A stretch of DNA of 64,000 bases from Vulcanimicrobiota bacterium (GTDB lineage: Bacteria; Vulcanimicrobiota; Vulcanimicrobiia; Vulcanimicrobiales; Vulcanimicrobiaceae): assembly GCA_003151115.1 (NCBI GenBank), contig PLWS01000007.1:62001-126000 (forward strand). The letters are read 5' to 3'. The notes beneath the pieces were generated by a model that saw only the letters and a program-made list of their open reading frames with translations, did no database searches and was not told where the DNA came from. Positions 39,331 through 47,706 of this stretch are shown here, piece after piece. The position numbers were made by a program, and so were the translations under genes. How positions within the stretch are numbered: the stretch's first letter is position 1; each line of letters begins with the position of its first letter.

Positions 39331-39813
39331 GTGACCCATATGAAAAGGATGCTCGGGACCGCGCTATTCCTGAGCTTGCTCTGCGGTTGCAGCGGAGCGG
39401 GTTATCTTCCGTATGCGCCGCACGCGCTCGATCCCGCGCAACTTCAACGGCTCGTCAGCACGGCAGCCGCACGCAACGGCGTGCCGATCGGTTTGGTCAA
39501 CGCCGTCGTCATGGCGGAATCGGCCGGCGATCCATCGGCCATCAGCAGCGCGGGAGCGCAGGGCCTCATGCAATTGATGCCCGGCACTGCGGCTGGCTGC
39601 GGAATCGGCAACGCGTTCGATCCGGCAGAGAATGTGGACTGCGGAACGCGCTACTTGCACGGTCTGCTTAAACGCTACCGGAATAACGTCGAGCTCGCAG
39701 TGGCGGCGTACAACGCTGGGCCCGGCGCCGTCGATCAATATCACGGCATTCCGCCGTATGCGGAAACGCAAGCCTACGTCGACCGCGTTCTGACGGCTTA
39801 CCGCAGCTACTAG
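39331..39813 (+). CDS. Lytic transglycosylase (SLT domain) lipoprotein
   Basis: 160 aa; LLCGCSG lipobox; GLVNAVVMAESAGDPSAISSAGAQGLMQLMPGTAAGCGIGNAFDPAENVDCGTRYLHGLLKRY...AVAAYNAGPGAVD. Confidence 0.93.
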   Translation: MTHMKRMLGTALFLSLLCGCSGAGYLPYAPHALDPAQLQRLVSTAAARNGVPIGLVNAVVMAESAGDPSAISSAGAQGLMQLMPGTAAGCGIGNAFDPAENVDCGTRYLHGLLKRYRNNVELAVAAYNAGPGAVDQYHGIPPYAETQAYVDRVLTAYRSY

Positions 39814-39829
39814 CGGACTGTTAACGCGG

Positions 39830-40984
39830 ATGGCCTCCATTTCCGGAGCACGCCCCGCGCCCCTGGGTCTGTTGCGCTCGCTGCGCTTACCGCTGCTCGA
39901 CGCTTACATACTGCGCGAGTTCATGGGGCCGTTCGTATTCGCGTTCCTCGCGTTCTTTTTATTTTGGGGTTTCAACATTTTCTTCTTGGCCGCGAATCAA
40001 ATCATCGGCCACGGCGCGCCGTTCTTTCTCGTCTTGCGGTTCGTCGCGTTCCGCGTGCCGCAATCGATTCCGATGGCCTTTCCGTTCGCGGCACTTTTCG
40101 CAACGCTGCTTGGCATCGGACGCCTGATGGCCGACAACGAAATCAACGCGATTCGCACGTCCGGCACGTCGCTGTGGCGCCTCTGTCTTACGCCGCTGGT
40201 TTTCGGATTTACGGTTTTTTTATTCGCCTGGGCGATGAACGAATTCGTGGCGCCTAAATCGGTCGAGATTTCAACGCGCACGTTCTATCAGATCATCTAT
40301 CACACCGGCGCGCTGCCGGTCGAGTCACAGTTTTTTCGTAAGGACCCCGATACGGGCAACGAGTTCTTCATCGATCACGTGATGGCCGACGGCAGCACCA
40401 TGGTGGGCGTGCAGATCTTCAAGCCCGGACGCAACGGTTACTGGAACGAAACGATTCAGGCCAAGACCGCGCACGTGGTTGGACCGACGCTGGTTCTGAA
40501 CGGCGTCGTCATTACGTTTTATAACAGCCAAGGCTATATGACGTCGCAGGTTGACAAGTCTGAAGCCAGCATCGGCCTGCCGCTGGGAGAAAACGCGGCG
40601 CAGTTCCTGAGCAGCGCGAGCAGCGACGCATGGACGATGGATTCCAAACAACTGGCCCACCAAGTCAGCGCATTACAAGCGCAAGGTGTCGGCGGCGAAG
40701 CGCTGGGAAATCTGCAAGTCAATCTCGCAGACAAGCTGGCGTTTCCGTTCTCCGCGCTGGTCGCGGTCATGCTGGCGCTGCCGCTGGCGATCATGTTCGG
40801 AAAGAAAGGGCGCATGATGGGAATCGCGATGTCGATCATCGCGTTCTTCGTCTATTTCATTCTCTCGGAAGCGGCCGCCGCGTTCGGCGGCACGGGGCGC
40901 GTGAACCCGTACATCGTTTCCTGGATCCCGAACCTCGTCTTTGGTGTGGGCGGCCTGGCGTTACTTTGGTACGAAGAGCACTAG
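39830..40984 (+). CDS. LptF/LptG (YjgP/YjgQ) family permease
   Basis: 384 aa; LLDAYILREFMGPFVFAFLAFFLFW...PQSIPMAFPFAALFATLLGIGRLMADNEINAIRTSGTSLWRL. Confidence 0.92.
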   Translation: MASISGARPAPLGLLRSLRLPLLDAYILREFMGPFVFAFLAFFLFWGFNIFFLAANQIIGHGAPFFLVLRFVAFRVPQSIPMAFPFAALFATLLGIGRLMADNEINAIRTSGTSLWRLCLTPLVFGFTVFLFAWAMNEFVAPKSVEISTRTFYQIIYHTGALPVESQFFRKDPDTGNEFFIDHVMADGSTMVGVQIFKPGRNGYWNETIQAKTAHVVGPTLVLNGVVITFYNSQGYMTSQVDKSEASIGLPLGENAAQFLSSASSDAWTMDSKQLAHQVSALQAQGVGGEALGNLQVNLADKLAFPFSALVAVMLALPLAIMFGKKGRMMGIAMSIIAFFVYFILSEAAAAFGGTGRVNPYIVSWIPNLVFGVGGLALLWYEEH

Positions 40985-40992
40985 GCGGCGTC

Positions 40993-43900
40993 GTGTTTGG
41001 TTCGCAGGGTCGCGCAGTTCGCGCAACGATTTGCTTGACGACGTTTCTGGCCGGATTCTTTCCCATAGCGGCACCGGCGCGCGACGTCAATTTTGAAAAC
41101 GCGAACCTCAAGAGTCACGATTTCCGCAACGCCGATCTGCGCAACGCGGATCTGCAAGGCGCCGACCTGAGCGGCGCCGACCTGACGCGCGCAAATCTCA
41201 CCGGAGCCAATATGCAGGGCGCGCACTTGGAAGGCGCGATTCTGCAGAATGCGATTCTGATACGTGCGAATCTGCAGTCGGCCGACTCGCAAGATGCGAT
41301 TTTCCAAGGCGCATCCTTGCAGCAGGCAAATATGCAGAGTGCGTTGTTGTACGGCGCTCATCTTTACCGCGCGAATTTGCGGCACGCCGATCTCGCCGGC
41401 GCAAACCTCGAAACGGCCGACCTGCGCTCCGCCGATATACGCGACGCAAACCTACAGGGGGCAAACCTGTTGCGCACGGATACGCGCGGCGCACGCTGGT
41501 TCGGAGCCAGTTTGCAAAACGTACGGCGTTCGGACCAGATCGCGCTGGCGACGCCGCTGCCCGAATTATCCGCGCCGCCCGTTCCGGCAACGCCCGAGCC
41601 GATCGTGCGCGTAACCGCTGCGCCAAAACGATTGCCCGTCAAAACCGCAATCGCACGCGTCACTCCCGCACCATCGCCATCGCATACGCCATCGCTGGTT
41701 TTAGCGCGAAAGAAGATCGCCGTTGCGGCCGTTACGCCGCCTGCGCCGCACATGTTGCCGGTCCCGCGCATTTTGCCGGCGCCGTCACCTTTGCTAACGC
41801 CGCATCCTTTGCTAACGCCGCTGCCGTTGCTAACGCCGGCGCCACTGCCCGCGCCCGCGCCTTCTCCGGCGGCTGCGCAAAACGTGATGTCATCCGAAGC
41901 AATCTTTGCACTGCTCAACGCGCGACCGTGCGCGTCGCGTTCGAGCGGCACGGGCGATCTGATCGCACAAGTCACGCCGACTCCCGCGCCGTCGCCGAGT
42001 TCGAGCGCGAGTGTTCCAAACGCACCGCTGGCACCGGGTCAGCTCTACGCAACGCCCATTCCGACGGGGAGTCCAGTTACGCCACCGCCGATTCCTACGC
42101 CCACGCCGGCCACAAAGGCAAGCACCGGGCCCGTCTTTCTTATTCGTGGCTCCGCGCCGCCGTCGATTGTCCCGAACGGCTCGCCGACGCCGGAGGCGTC
42201 CCCGACACCGATCGTGGCACCCACGTTGCGCCCCGGCTTTGTTGCAGTCATGGCCGACAAGTTCGTCGGCAATGCGAACAAACAGGGCGCGCCCGGCGAC
42301 GCAATCGGCAACGTCCACATCTTCTATCAAGACGAAGTGCTCGTCGGCGATCGCGCGCACTATGACGGGTTCAAAACGATCACCGTCACCGGCAATCCCT
42401 ACATCGTCGACAACACGAATACGTCGATCTTGCACGGCGATCAGATCGTGTTCGATACGCTCGCTCAGCGGGCCGAACTGATCAACGGCCGCGGCGAGAG
42501 TTCGCAAGGCGTGGAACGCGGGCTCGTCTACTTCAGCGCGAAGGACTTGCGAGCCGACGAACACGGCGTCTCGCACGGCGATTACGCGAACGTCACAACC
42601 TGCGAGCGCCCGCGCGCGGGCTATCACATTACCGGGCGCACCATCGACGTTTATCCCGGCGATCGAATGGTCATCAGCAAAGCCGTGCTCTTCTTAGGCG
42701 CGGCCGCAGTCTTCTATCTGCCCAAAGTGATCATTCCGTTGCGGCGCATCGACGACGACCGCCAGCGCCCGTCGTTTTTTCCCGAAGTCGGCTACAACTC
42801 ATACCAGGGCTTTTACATCAAAGCTAAACCCGGATTCGGTCGCGACCAGTACTTTTATGGCTATTATCGCGTCGAGTACTACTCAAAACAGGGGTTCGGC
42901 TTGGGGTACACCGCGTTCTTAGCCCGGCAGAGCGGCAAGCGGCAATCCTCGATCGACTCGTATGCCATTCACGACCGGCGCACGCAGACGACGACCTGGA
43001 ATTTGAACGCGCAAGACACCGAAAACTTCTCGCAGACCCTGCGCGCGCGTTTCGGATTCGCTTACAACAGCAACTTCGGACCGTTGATCAACCTGCCGCC
43101 CAACGAAAACATCAACGCGTCGATCGCGCACACCGGCGCGCACGCGCAGCAGAACTATACGTTTGCGCACAGCAGCATCGCCACCCAGTCTGCGAACGAT
43201 AATTTTGGGTTCACCGAAACGCGCAGCTTCTCGGCGTCGACGCAGAATAGCCTCGCTATCAACATCAGTTCGGCGCGCACCAATTACGGGCTCAACAACG
43301 CAAGCAGCAACTCGACCGGCACGTTCAGCGATCTGCTGCAATGGAGCAACAAGTTTGCCGCCTACACGCTGAACTACGACAAGAGTTTCGCCCGCACACC
43401 GTACGGGCTGAACAAGGAGCCCGAACTCCAGATCCATCCGTACAGTTTTCTCAAGCACTTCATCATTCCGATCACGTCGTCGTTCACAATCGGAGACTAC
43501 AACGAACCGCAAACGCCGCTCTCCACATCGCGCGCGGACTTGAATTTCAACTTCGGCCCCGCGCTCTATCACGTCTTGGGCAGCGACATCAGCGCCGGCG
43601 TAAACGTCCACCAGTACGCGTACGGCACGGGCGACATGAAGGCCAGCATCCAGCAGAACGCCTCGATGTCGACACCGATCGGAAGCCACGCCCTCAATGC
43701 GATCACCTACAATGAAACCAACTACAACGGTCCGCCCTTCGTGCCGTTTAACACGCTCGACCAGCAGCCGACGAACAACTACAAGAGCGCGGCCGACGTC
43801 TTACGTTTCTACAACAGCGACTTCTACACGCTGACGCTGAGCTTCAACACCGCTTTCAACCGCGCGGCGCAGCCGGTGCAGTATCAGCTCGCCGCTCACC

Positions 43901-44235
43901 CGTCGCGCCGCTCGTACGTCGCGCTCGCAGGATCGTTCATCCCGGGCCCCGGCAACGGTTTCTTCATGACAAACCTGCAGTTTTCGACGCCGTTCGGAAA
44001 CGGGTCGACGCTGCAGTTCATCGGCGACATCGACTGGAAGAACAAGGGCCGCATCATCAACAAGAGCATTTACTGGAGCCGCATCATCGGCGACTGCTAT
44101 CAAATCCAGCTCCAATACAATCAGGCCGCGAAGCAAGTGAACCTCACGCTGAACCTGCTGGCATTCCCGTCGCGCGGCGCAAGTTTCGGCTTAAACTCGA
44201 CCGGCTCGATCATTCCGACCAGCTTCAACTTCTAG
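40993..44235 (+). CDS. LptD-like outer-membrane protein with N-terminal pentapeptide-repeat domain and Pro-rich linker
   Basis: About 1080 aa from GTG 40993: signal peptide, about 27 tandem A(D/N)LxX pentapeptides, Pro/Thr/Ser-rich linker, LptA/OstA-like domain (MADKFVGNANKQGAPGDAIGNVHIFYQDEVLVGDRAHYD), then beta-barrel-like C-terminus. Confidence 0.82.
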   Translation: MFGSQGRAVRATICLTTFLAGFFPIAAPARDVNFENANLKSHDFRNADLRNADLQGADLSGADLTRANLTGANMQGAHLEGAILQNAILIRANLQSADSQDAIFQGASLQQANMQSALLYGAHLYRANLRHADLAGANLETADLRSADIRDANLQGANLLRTDTRGARWFGASLQNVRRSDQIALATPLPELSAPPVPATPEPIVRVTAAPKRLPVKTAIARVTPAPSPSHTPSLVLARKKIAVAAVTPPAPHMLPVPRILPAPSPLLTPHPLLTPLPLLTPAPLPAPAPSPAAAQNVMSSEAIFALLNARPCASRSSGTGDLIAQVTPTPAPSPSSSASVPNAPLAPGQLYATPIPTGSPVTPPPIPTPTPATKASTGPVFLIRGSAPPSIVPNGSPTPEASPTPIVAPTLRPGFVAVMADKFVGNANKQGAPGDAIGNVHIFYQDEVLVGDRAHYDGFKTITVTGNPYIVDNTNTSILHGDQIVFDTLAQRAELINGRGESSQGVERGLVYFSAKDLRADEHGVSHGDYANVTTCERPRAGYHITGRTIDVYPGDRMVISKAVLFLGAAAVFYLPKVIIPLRRIDDDRQRPSFFPEVGYNSYQGFYIKAKPGFGRDQYFYGYYRVEYYSKQGFGLGYTAFLARQSGKRQSSIDSYAIHDRRTQTTTWNLNAQDTENFSQTLRARFGFAYNSNFGPLINLPPNENINASIAHTGAHAQQNYTFAHSSIATQSANDNFGFTETRSFSASTQNSLAINISSARTNYGLNNASSNSTGTFSDLLQWSNKFAAYTLNYDKSFARTPYGLNKEPELQIHPYSFLKHFIIPITSSFTIGDYNEPQTPLSTSRADLNFNFGPALYHVLGSDISAGVNVHQYAYGTGDMKASIQQNASMSTPIGSHALNAITYNETNYNGPPFVPFNTLDQQPTNNYKSAADVLRFYNSDFYTLTLSFNTAFNRAAQPVQYQLAAHPSRRSYVALAGSFIPGPGNGFFMTNLQFSTPFGNGSTLQFIGDIDWKNKGRIINKSIYWSRIIGDCYQIQLQYNQAAKQVNLTLNLLAFPSRGASFGLNSTGSIIPTSFNF

Positions 44236-44606: not shown

Positions 44607-45323
44607 TTACGGGCTGTTGATGACTTCGCCGGCGGCGATCTGCGCGCTGCGCGGCGTGACTTGTGGCCAGCCGGCGTTCGCGCTGAACTGCTGATCGAAC
44701 GACGTTGAGACGTCGCTGCCGGGAAGGCCCGTGGTCGGGAACGTGAACGTCTGATCTTGCGGGCCGCCGATGCCGGGCGCGTCGATCGGCTGACCGGAAC
44801 CGTTGGTCGTGAACCAGTTGACGTACCAAAGGTTCGGATTTGCTCCGGGAACGGGAGACGGTGTCGGAACTATGCCGTTAAAGAGCCTGCGATCGAAGGT
44901 CACGGTGAACTGCGTGTTCTGGCCGTTGCTATTGAGGTTGAACTGCAACTGCTGCGGCGTATACTGGATGATTACCGGAGTGGCAACCTGTCCGCCGCCG
45001 ACGCCGGTGTTGCGGACATATTGCACGACCTGCACAGAAGACGTTACGCCATTGCCGCCCACGACGATCGCAAACCAATAGTTCGCATAATTGGTTTGGT
45101 AGCCGTTGGCGTAGGGCATGCCGCCGCTCGTCGACGTGTTGAACATGATGACGTATTGAACGTTGGTGAAATCCATCGCCTGGGCAGTCGTGAACTTGAC
45201 CTGCATGAAACCCGAGGGGAGTCCCGAAGGCGTGATGGAACCGCGGTCGGGGGTTACTTGGCGCCCGCAGGCTGCAAACGTGAACGCCGCAACAGAGACG
45301 ACGAACAAGATTTTGCGTAGCAC
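44607..45323 (-). CDS. lipoprotein, hypothetical
   Basis: GTG 45323 with SD ggaggtaaag; VLRKILFVVSVAAFTFAACGRQ lipobox-like. Confidence 0.6.
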   Translation of the reverse strand: MLRKILFVVSVAAFTFAACGRQVTPDRGSITPSGLPSGFMQVKFTTAQAMDFTNVQYVIMFNTSTSGGMPYANGYQTNYANYWFAIVVGGNGVTSSVQVVQYVRNTGVGGGQVATPVIIQYTPQQLQFNLNSNGQNTQFTVTFDRRLFNGIVPTPSPVPGANPNLWYVNWFTTNGSGQPIDAPGIGGPQDQTFTFPTTGLPGSDVSTSFDQQFSANAGWPQVTPRSAQIAAGEVINSP

Positions 45324-47391
45324 CTTTACCTCCGTCATCGTTTCCGCATTGAGCGCGGTCGCGCTCGCATGTGCTTTTCCCAAGGCGGGACAGGCTTGGC
45401 TCGCCCCGCTGGCGGCGGCGGGCCTGTTCTGGGCTTGGCAGCGGCTCTCCTGGAAACGTGCATTCTTCGCCGGATGGTTCGCCGGCACGATCTTTTTCGC
45501 GATAAATTTTTCTTGGTTCACGCACACTGTCGGCGACTATGTCGGCCCGTTCGCGTTTGCCGTGGTGCTGATCCCGGCGCTCGTAGAAGGGCTGACGTTT
45601 GCTGCAACCGCAGTTGCTGCGCGCGCAGCCGAGCGATACGCCCCGGCTTGGGCGGCACCGGCCGCAGCGGCAGCCGCGTTCACGGTCTTCGAGTGGCTGC
45701 GATCGGTCGGCGTGCTTGCCGTTCCGTTCGCGCAGATCGGGTACTCGCAAACCGTTACGCCGCTGATCGTGTTTGCGCCGTACATCGGATCGTTCGGCGT
45801 GACCTTCGTCGTCATGCTGTTGGGCGCGTATCTTGCGCAGGCAATCGATCTTCGCACACCGCGCGCATTCTTCGCCGTCGTCGTGGGCGTGGGTGCGACC
45901 GCCGCTCTCTGCTACGCGGCATGGCCGGCCCTGCACCGTTTCGCCGAACCGCCGCTCCTGCGCGTTGCGGCCGTGCAAGGCAACATCGCGCAGACGGTCA
46001 AGTGGAATCCGCAGGCATTTTGGCCGACCGTCAACACGTACTTGACGCAGACTCGAAAACTGCAGCCTGCGCACCCGCAGCTGATCGTCCTTCCGGAAAC
46101 CGTCATTCCGACGGATCTCAATACGAGCGACCCCAACGGCGTGCGCGCAATGGTCCGCTCGGATTTTTCAGCGCTGGCGCGCAGTTTGAATGCCACGCTC
46201 GTGGTCGGAAGCCTGGAAGCGCGCGGACCCAAAGATTACAACGCCCTTTTCGTTTTTAATCCATCGGGAACGCTCTCGCAGGTTTACGAAAAACGGCAGC
46301 TCGTCCCGTTCGCCGAATCGTTTCCGGGCGAAGCCTTTCTCAGTTGGCTGCCGAGCTCGGATCTCATCGGAAGGTTTGCAGCCGGACAAGACGACACCGT
46401 CATAACCGCCGGCGGCGTCACGTTCGCTCCGCTGATCTGCTGGGAGTCGGCATTCGCGGATCTCGTGCACGCCCAAGTTGCGCGCGGTGCCCAGTTCCTG
46501 GTGATCTCGACCGATGACGCATGGTTCGGCGAAACGTCCGGGACGTACCAGCACGCACAGATCGCGCAGATGCGCGCGATTGAAAACGGTCAATGGGTAC
46601 TACAGTCAGCCTCGACCGGGATCAGCGGCATCGTCGCGCCCGACGGAACGTGGATACAAGCGACCGCGCTCGATAAGACCGCGATCCTCTCGGGCGAAAT
46701 CCGGGCGCCCACGGGCTCATTCTTCGCGCGTATCGGTCCGACGCCGGTCGTCATCGCGCTCGCTCTGCTGTATGCCGCGATACTCGCACTTCGCACCGTG
46801 CTCGCGCGCGCACGCCGCTGGCGCGCGCCGCAATGGCGCCCCACGCCGGCGCGTTGGAAGCTCTTTGCAGCCGTCGCCGCAGCCGTTCTCTTGATCTGGG
46901 TCATTGCGGGCGTTATATTGGCGGGCAACGAGCCGGGCGCACCGCCGCAAGGCATGACGCCGCTGACGCTGCATGGCGGGCGCGTAACCGGAAACCGCAT
47001 AAGCACGAAATCTTGGATGTTCGAATACGACCGGGCGGAGATGTCGGCCGACGGCGTGCTCGCGACCGTGCAAGGCGTGCGCCGCGGCGTGCTGTACAAG
47101 GACGGTAAACCGTATCTCACCGTCCGCGCCGAACAAGTCTCGGTCAACACGCAAACGTTCGATTTCACGGCGACCGGCGACGTGCACATCACGCAAAATC
47201 AAGACACGAGCTCGGAGCGCTCCTTCGATTCGGATCTCATCCAGTGGATCAACGCGACCAAATCGCTTACTCTGCCGCATCCGAGCGTCGTACGCAGCGG
47301 TGGCGAGACGTTGAAAGTCTCCTCGATAAATGTGAACTTCAATACCGGCCAAATTCGCTTTGGCCAGGTCAGCGGCGGCGTAGCGCCCTAG
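45313..47391 (+). CDS. Lnt-like apolipoprotein N-acyltransferase with C-terminal LptC/LptA-like domain
   Basis: Multi-TM N-terminus; nitrilase domain (VLPETVIPTDL, VYEKRQLVPFAESFPG, PLICWESAF, DDAWFGETSGTYQHAQIAQMRAIENG); extra TM then about 160 aa beta-rich domain. Start codon uncertain (TTG 45313 or 45349). Confidence 0.88.
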   Translation: MRSTFTSVIVSALSAVALACAFPKAGQAWLAPLAAAGLFWAWQRLSWKRAFFAGWFAGTIFFAINFSWFTHTVGDYVGPFAFAVVLIPALVEGLTFAATAVAARAAERYAPAWAAPAAAAAAFTVFEWLRSVGVLAVPFAQIGYSQTVTPLIVFAPYIGSFGVTFVVMLLGAYLAQAIDLRTPRAFFAVVVGVGATAALCYAAWPALHRFAEPPLLRVAAVQGNIAQTVKWNPQAFWPTVNTYLTQTRKLQPAHPQLIVLPETVIPTDLNTSDPNGVRAMVRSDFSALARSLNATLVVGSLEARGPKDYNALFVFNPSGTLSQVYEKRQLVPFAESFPGEAFLSWLPSSDLIGRFAAGQDDTVITAGGVTFAPLICWESAFADLVHAQVARGAQFLVISTDDAWFGETSGTYQHAQIAQMRAIENGQWVLQSASTGISGIVAPDGTWIQATALDKTAILSGEIRAPTGSFFARIGPTPVVIALALLYAAILALRTVLARARRWRAPQWRPTPARWKLFAAVAAAVLLIWVIAGVILAGNEPGAPPQGMTPLTLHGGRVTGNRISTKSWMFEYDRAEMSADGVLATVQGVRRGVLYKDGKPYLTVRAEQVSVNTQTFDFTATGDVHITQNQDTSSERSFDSDLIQWINATKSLTLPHPSVVRSGGETLKVSSINVNFNTGQIRFGQVSGGVAP

Positions 47392-47394
47392 GCG

Positions 47395-47706
47395 CTACTG
47401 GCCGCCGGACTTCTTTTTCGCTTCGGCGATCAGTTGTTTGACTTTCTGGCCGCCTTTGTGGCCGATCTCTTCGTAAAAATCGGCGCCGTATTTTTCCTTG
47501 ACGACGCGGCCGCCTTTTTGTCCGATCGACTCGTAAAACTCCACGCCGTGGCGCTGCCGCGTCGCTTGGCCGCCCTTGCGCCCAATCGTTTCATAGAACC
47601 CCGGGCCATAGCGGTCGCGAACGGTGTCGCCGCCCTTCTTTCCGGCCTCGCGCACGGACATCTCGCCACCCGGCGGCTTGTCGTCGGCTTTGTGTGGTTT
47701 TGCCAT
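47395..47706 (-). CDS. KGG-motif / LEA group 1 (Em/GsiB)-like stress protein
   Basis: 103 aa with four KGG-containing repeats (YGPGFYETIGRKGGQATRQRHGVEFYESIGQKGG...). Confidence 0.8.
   Translation of the reverse strand: MAKPHKADDKPPGGEMSVREAGKKGGDTVRDRYGPGFYETIGRKGGQATRQRHGVEFYESIGQKGGRVVKEKYGADFYEEIGHKGGQKVKQLIAEAKKKSGGQ

Follow-up and report, generated by a model that had tools for sequence, protein, structure and literature searches.

The window, that is, the whole stretch of 64,000 nucleotides analysed here, comprises bases 62001-126000 of contig 3 of a genome (G000) of 2.56 Mb that is 98% complete. It contains a reading frame of 692 codons, open from a TTG at 45313 to a stop codon at 47391 with a possible in-frame start further upstream, in which Lnt is followed by an additional transmembrane (TM) helix and a beta-rich domain, here called LptC2. 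The features of the locus are as follows.

39331-39813, plus strand: SLT transglycosylase, first gene in the conserved cluster (PF01464, synteny)
39830-40984, plus strand: LptF/LptG permease, one of two in the genome (PF03739, 3.5e-68)
40990-44235, plus strand: LptD-like outer-membrane protein, start approximate (Foldseek LptD; PF00805)
44607-45338, minus strand: predicted lipoprotein gene, divergent, between lptD and lnt (lipobox in translation, synteny)
45313-47391, plus strand: lnt-lptC2 fusion ORF, 692 aa, TTG start, exact start uncertain (same uninterrupted ORF in G100, G102 and G103)
45313-46782, plus strand: Lnt part, residues 1-490, with the N-terminal TM region, the nitrilase domain and most of the last Lnt TM helix (TIGR00546, 1.7e-83)
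46783-46854, plus strand: linker, residues 491-514, predicted cytoplasmic loop joining the last Lnt TM helix to the LptC2 TM helix
46833-46835, plus strand: remnant ATG at the ancestral lptC2 start site, no longer in the reading frame of the LptC2 domain
46855-46926, plus strand: extra TM helix, residues 515-538, LptC-type N-terminal anchor (AlphaFold helix 2-23, hydropathy peak)
46933-47391, plus strand: LptC-like beta-jellyroll, predicted periplasmic, residues 541-692 and stop codon (TIGR04409, PF06835, Foldseek LptC)
47395-47706, minus strand: KGG-repeat protein, convergent, downstream edge of the cluster (synteny)

The order SLT, lptF/G, lptD-like, divergent lipoprotein, lnt, lptC2 and convergent KGG protein is found in 10 genomes from three families of the class, the divergent lipoprotein being kept in most of the class and not detected in the most distant of these 10 genomes. 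Class-wide, lnt lies within an Lpt gene cluster, with LptC2 as its constant neighbour. The LptD-like gene that the initial annotation had noticed near the fusion indeed lies upstream of it, separated by the one divergent lipoprotein gene, and it is an LptD by fold (Foldseek 8h1s, E 3e-23, region 42160-44235). The Pfam LptD profile PF04453 misses this gene despite the clear fold match, which suggests that LptD genes of Eremiobacterota may often go unannotated.

The two halves of the fusion protein

The match to Lnt covers residues 14-464 (TIGR00546, 281 bits, equivalog cut-off 132.9; also PF20154 LNT_N and PF00795 CN_hydrolase), and three motifs aligned to solved Lnt structures locate the catalytic triad at E262, K327 and C376. 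Hydropathy peaks lie before residue 208 and at residues 467-501, flanking the nitrilase domain (217-464) in the manner of Lnt, and the last Lnt TM helix peaks at about residues 479-497. The homology to canonical Lnt (5n6h, 5n6m, 5xhq, 6nwr) spans the full enzyme and takes in the motifs of Glu, Lys and Cys, whereas the fusion protein adds about 180 residues to it, with one more TM helix and a periplasmic jellyroll. Because the triad is intact and the fusion protein is the sole protein above the Lnt cut-off in the genome, the Lnt half presumably N-acylates lipoproteins as usual.

The further TM helix and beta tail described beyond the nitrilase domain and the last Lnt TM helix are present, at residues 515-692 (46855-47388, 178 aa). 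LptC has one TM helix followed by a beta-jellyroll in the periplasm, and the same architecture, a single N-terminal TM helix and one jellyroll, is found here, the TM helix coming after Lnt in the fusion. The AlphaFold model of the 178-aa tail (pLDDT 81.5) has one helix (2-23) followed by an all-beta domain. On the isolated tail, the LptC profile TIGR04409 gives E 3.4e-8 and 33.2 bits, under the equivalog cut-off of 38, and PF06835 gives E 9.7e-5 and 22.5 bits (cut-off 21), as against 18.6 on the full-length protein. A Foldseek comparison of the tail model with the PDB returns LptC at the top (4b54, E 4e-7, TM-score by target 0.79-0.80) and LptA next, which agrees with the LptC/LptA-style fold that had been proposed from the sequence; 6mit chain C and 3my2 are further LptC structures among the matches, and each of the 17 PDB matches with E no higher than 0.001 is an LptC or an LptA/LptH. 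The resemblance of the tail to LptC exceeds chance on the E-values of these two profiles and of the Foldseek match to LptC. The profile and fold matches thus confirm that a full Lnt and an LptC-type TM helix with jellyroll share one ORF.

When the PDB was searched by sequence, the LptC2 profile found nothing credible, and the fold search alone gave matches. Some split LptC2 homologues are barely or not picked up by LptC profiles, PF06835 scoring 19.0, 13.2 and nothing on those compared. The LptC of Enterobacteria (4b54, 3my2, 6mit chain C) shares with LptC2 the N-terminal TM helix and the one periplasmic beta-jellyroll; however, identity is about 12-15%, and LptC2 is linked to lnt and lptD rather than to lptA and lptB, is fused to Lnt and coexists with another LptC. 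As LptC2 falls short of the equivalog score and shares its genome with another LptC, I class it as LptC-like and not as LptC, which leaves undiminished the proposal that it may work like LptC.

A separate LptC in the same genome

The other LptC, LptC1, is a protein of 180 aa encoded on contig 5 of G000 (within L014:9747-10505, minus strand) and scores above both LptC cut-offs (TIGR04409 41.6 bits, cut-off 38; PF06835 30 bits). Its gene comes after lpxB and a gene resembling O-antigen ligase, the latter label coming from a reading of the sequence, and directly precedes lptB and an LptG-type permease gene. LptC1 and LptC2 both match the LptC-family profiles TIGR04409 and PF06835, LptC2 with the scores given above, but LptC1 is a predicted lipoprotein with a lipobox, its Cys17 invariant in 30/30 homologues, and belongs to an lptB-lptG cluster. 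Of the 149 phylum genomes, 126 have a homologue of LptC1, among them almost every genome of the class. Compared directly, the LptC2 and LptC1 profiles match only weakly (probability 9.7%, E 0.003), which counts against the explanation that I favour below.

The initial annotation had taken the fused domain for the bridge subunit of LPS transport in this genome, and had itself named a separate canonical lptC as the observation that would contradict this. Such a gene exists, above the TIGR04409 cut-off, in the lptB/lptG cluster on another contig, and the fused domain is consequently a second, TM-anchored LptC-like protein. It is still conceivable, though unlikely, that the fused domain is the LptC bridge of the organism, that LPS transport and lipoprotein maturation form one machine, and that the lipoprotein encoded on contig 5 does something else: the TM-plus-jellyroll architecture of LptC2 is nearer to textbook LptC than is the lipoprotein LptC1, and its gene is grouped with lptF/G and lptD. 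However, LptC1 passes the equivalog cut-off, is class-wide and sits between lpxB/O-antigen-type genes and lptB-lptG, and a fusion found in four species only (see below) implies no general physical coupling. Tested directly, LptC2 is neither the only LptC of the genome nor linked to lptA or lptB.

The genome has two LptF/LptG genes only, one in the lptB cluster and one in the lnt cluster, which suggests a single exporter. Despite this number, it has both the class-wide lipoprotein-type LptC1 and the TM-type LptC2. Two further adjacent genes for LptA/LptC-like jellyroll proteins are found on contig 5 of the same genome (L013:9647-10791, plus strand), following murA- and mreB-like genes at about 100 kb from the lptB cluster.

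Distribution and origin of the fusion

The 149 genomes of the phylum were searched with the whole fusion protein and with profile A1, an alignment of 27 LptC2 homologues. LptC2 was found in 110 of them, directly downstream of lnt and on the same strand in 103, while in the other seven lnt and lptC2 are on different contigs or there is no listed match to lnt. In about 100 related genomes, the block of TM helix and tail is a free-standing gene. A continuous lnt-lptC2 frame is restricted to four species of one genus (G000, G100, G102 and G103), which are soil bacteria, and the comparison with sister genomes therefore speaks against the fusion as a general feature. I also rejected a class-wide fusion, as beyond the four fused genomes the two genes are in frame only in G016, where a TAG stands between them. 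Long ORFs around LptC2 in relatives (e.g. 696 aa in G050) were likewise rejected as fusions, their frame differing from that of lnt. In G104, the seventh member of the genus, the junction is disturbed by a run of Ns and a contig misjoin, so that this genome is uninformative. A scan for LptC2 across GTDB, which detects close relatives only, matched only Eremiobacterota/Vulcanimicrobiota or bacterial MAGs, and Lnt-LptC fusions from other LptC families may exist beyond its reach.

In split relatives, lnt and lptC2 often overlap by a few bases. In the split genome G105, lnt ends with CTGCAATGA, in which the stop codon of lnt and the start codon of lptC2 share ATGA (CAATGA), while the window reads CCGCAATGG at the same junction (CAATGG), the stop codon having become Trp and the frame being shifted. 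Given that lptC2 directly follows lnt at 103 of its 110 loci, and that outside the four fused genomes the two are in frame only in G016, the split state is ancestral. In the tree the four fused species form one clade (support 98/96) with the split G101 and G105 outside, from which a single origin follows; the fusion arose once and recently, by loss of the stop codon and a change of frame at an overlapping junction.

That an assembly or sequencing error joined two genes might be suspected from their separation in most relatives. However, the same continuous frame occurs in four separately assembled species of one clade, with an in-frame deletion in the linker of one of them, and I have rejected this artefact as having next to no probability.

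One polypeptide or two

Both halves are under strong purifying selection, with dN/dS of about 0.1. Among the fused species, the LptC2 domain has dN of 0.04-0.07 and dS of 0.52-0.84 (dN/dS about 0.07-0.11), and Lnt has dN of 0.06-0.11 and dS of 0.45-0.90 (dN/dS 0.11-0.14). The linker is more variable, and in G100 it has lost 7 codons in frame. It could be argued that the genes are fused on paper only, an internal start or cleavage by a protease releasing two free proteins, as the linker does contain in-frame GTG and TTG codons (in the window, a GTG at 46798). However, none of the possible linker starts keeps both its position and its context across the four fused species, the candidates have no clear Shine-Dalgarno sequence upstream as judged by eye, and the ATG of the ancestral lptC2 is out of frame in the window. 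I regard two free proteins as quite improbable; on the reading frames, the simplest reading of the product is one polypeptide.

Proposed role of the fused domain

I propose, as the probable explanation, that the window carries a recent lnt-lptC2 fusion in which Lnt acts as usual, while LptC2 most likely docks on LptB2FG beside LptC1. The ancestral and still class-wide arrangement is lnt followed by lptC2, which encodes a small inner-membrane protein with a single TM helix and a jellyroll of the LptC type. Within the genus, one sub-clade lost the TGA of lnt in an ATGA-type overlap and underwent a frame shift, from which the single chain would result. The last Lnt TM helix is predicted to end in the cytoplasm, where it would be followed by a positive loop (8 R/K and no D/E in residues 492-516), after which the LptC2 TM helix would recross the membrane and leave the jellyroll in the periplasm. 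The domains are evident from sequence and model, and the predicted topology fits the arrangement of LptC. The LptC2 jellyroll, and perhaps its TM helix too, would dock on the single LptB2FG exporter beside the lipoprotein-type LptC1. LptC1 might then be the bridge and LptC2 a TM-bearing regulator, a division of labour that is thinkable since in E. coli LptC without its TM helix still supports transport, the helix seeming to regulate ATPase activity (PMC10094684). The outer membrane of Vulcanimicrobium alpinus is LPS-covered (PMC9758169), which makes LPS plausible in the phylum. The fusion itself probably fixes no more than 1:1 expression and location, and Lnt and LptC2 most likely keep their own jobs while tethered.

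The constant linkage of LptC2 is to lnt and not to lptB or lptA, and this counts against docking on the exporter, as do its score under the equivalog cut-off and the poor detection of some of its split homologues. Alternatively, LptC2 could be a partner of Lnt and not an Lpt subunit, its jellyroll handing lipids or apolipoproteins to Lnt or positioning it. The jellyroll fold holds acyl chains in Lpt proteins, and the linkage of lptC2 to lnt is almost invariant throughout the class, ending in fusion in one clade. However, the cluster is an Lpt cluster as well (lptF/G, lptD), so that proximity to lnt cannot be told apart from proximity to lpt genes, and Lnt elsewhere is not known to need a partner of this kind; I give this alternative a small though appreciable chance. 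A bolder and improbable reading is that in this clade Lnt has been built into the LPS exporter, with the TM helix and jellyroll of LptC2 docked on LptB2FG and N-acylation taking place where the Lpt bridge begins, which would couple maturation and export in space. Were this so, the coupled maturation would include Lpt lipoproteins such as LptC1, and the lptF/G-lptD-lnt-lptC2 cluster seen class-wide would represent this coupling without fusion.

Precedent and significance

The nearest precedent is Ppm1 of Mycobacterium tuberculosis/BCG (Rv2051c, BCG_2070c), in which an Lnt domain is fused to polyprenol-monophosphomannose synthase, M. smegmatis having Lnt and Ppm synthase as separate genes (MSMEG_3860/3859; PMC3850990). 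In both cases Lnt is fused to the product of a neighbouring gene and the genes are separate in relatives, but the partner is Ppm synthase there and a TM-anchored LptC-like jellyroll here, Ppm synthase being absent from the fusion protein. Fusion of Lnt to a neighbour is thus known, while an LptC-like partner is without precedent in the literature searched, in which no Lnt-LptC fusion was found. The locus illustrates that a gene for lipoprotein maturation can join an LPS-transport cluster, first by synteny and then by fusion. It also reveals a whole bacterial class in which LptC-type proteins come in two versions, one a lipoprotein and the other anchored by a TM helix; in the studied genome, both accompany only one LptFG pair. 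The Lpt field has yet to settle what the TM helix of LptC does (PMC10094684), and a lineage that seemingly splits the TM and lipoprotein versions of LptC over two genes offers a natural test of it.

Other genes of the cluster

The predicted lipoprotein gene at 44607-45338 (minus strand) is head-to-head with lnt, the ORF containing it has no Pfam match, and its product is a candidate LptE-like partner. The LptD-like gene carries a block of pentapeptide repeats (A(D/N)LXX) and a Pro-rich linker between the signal peptide and the LptD N-domain. This block is present in six of the seven members of the genus (not in G105) and absent from the five other genera checked; with the fusion, this makes two domain gains of a lineage-specific kind in one Lpt cluster.
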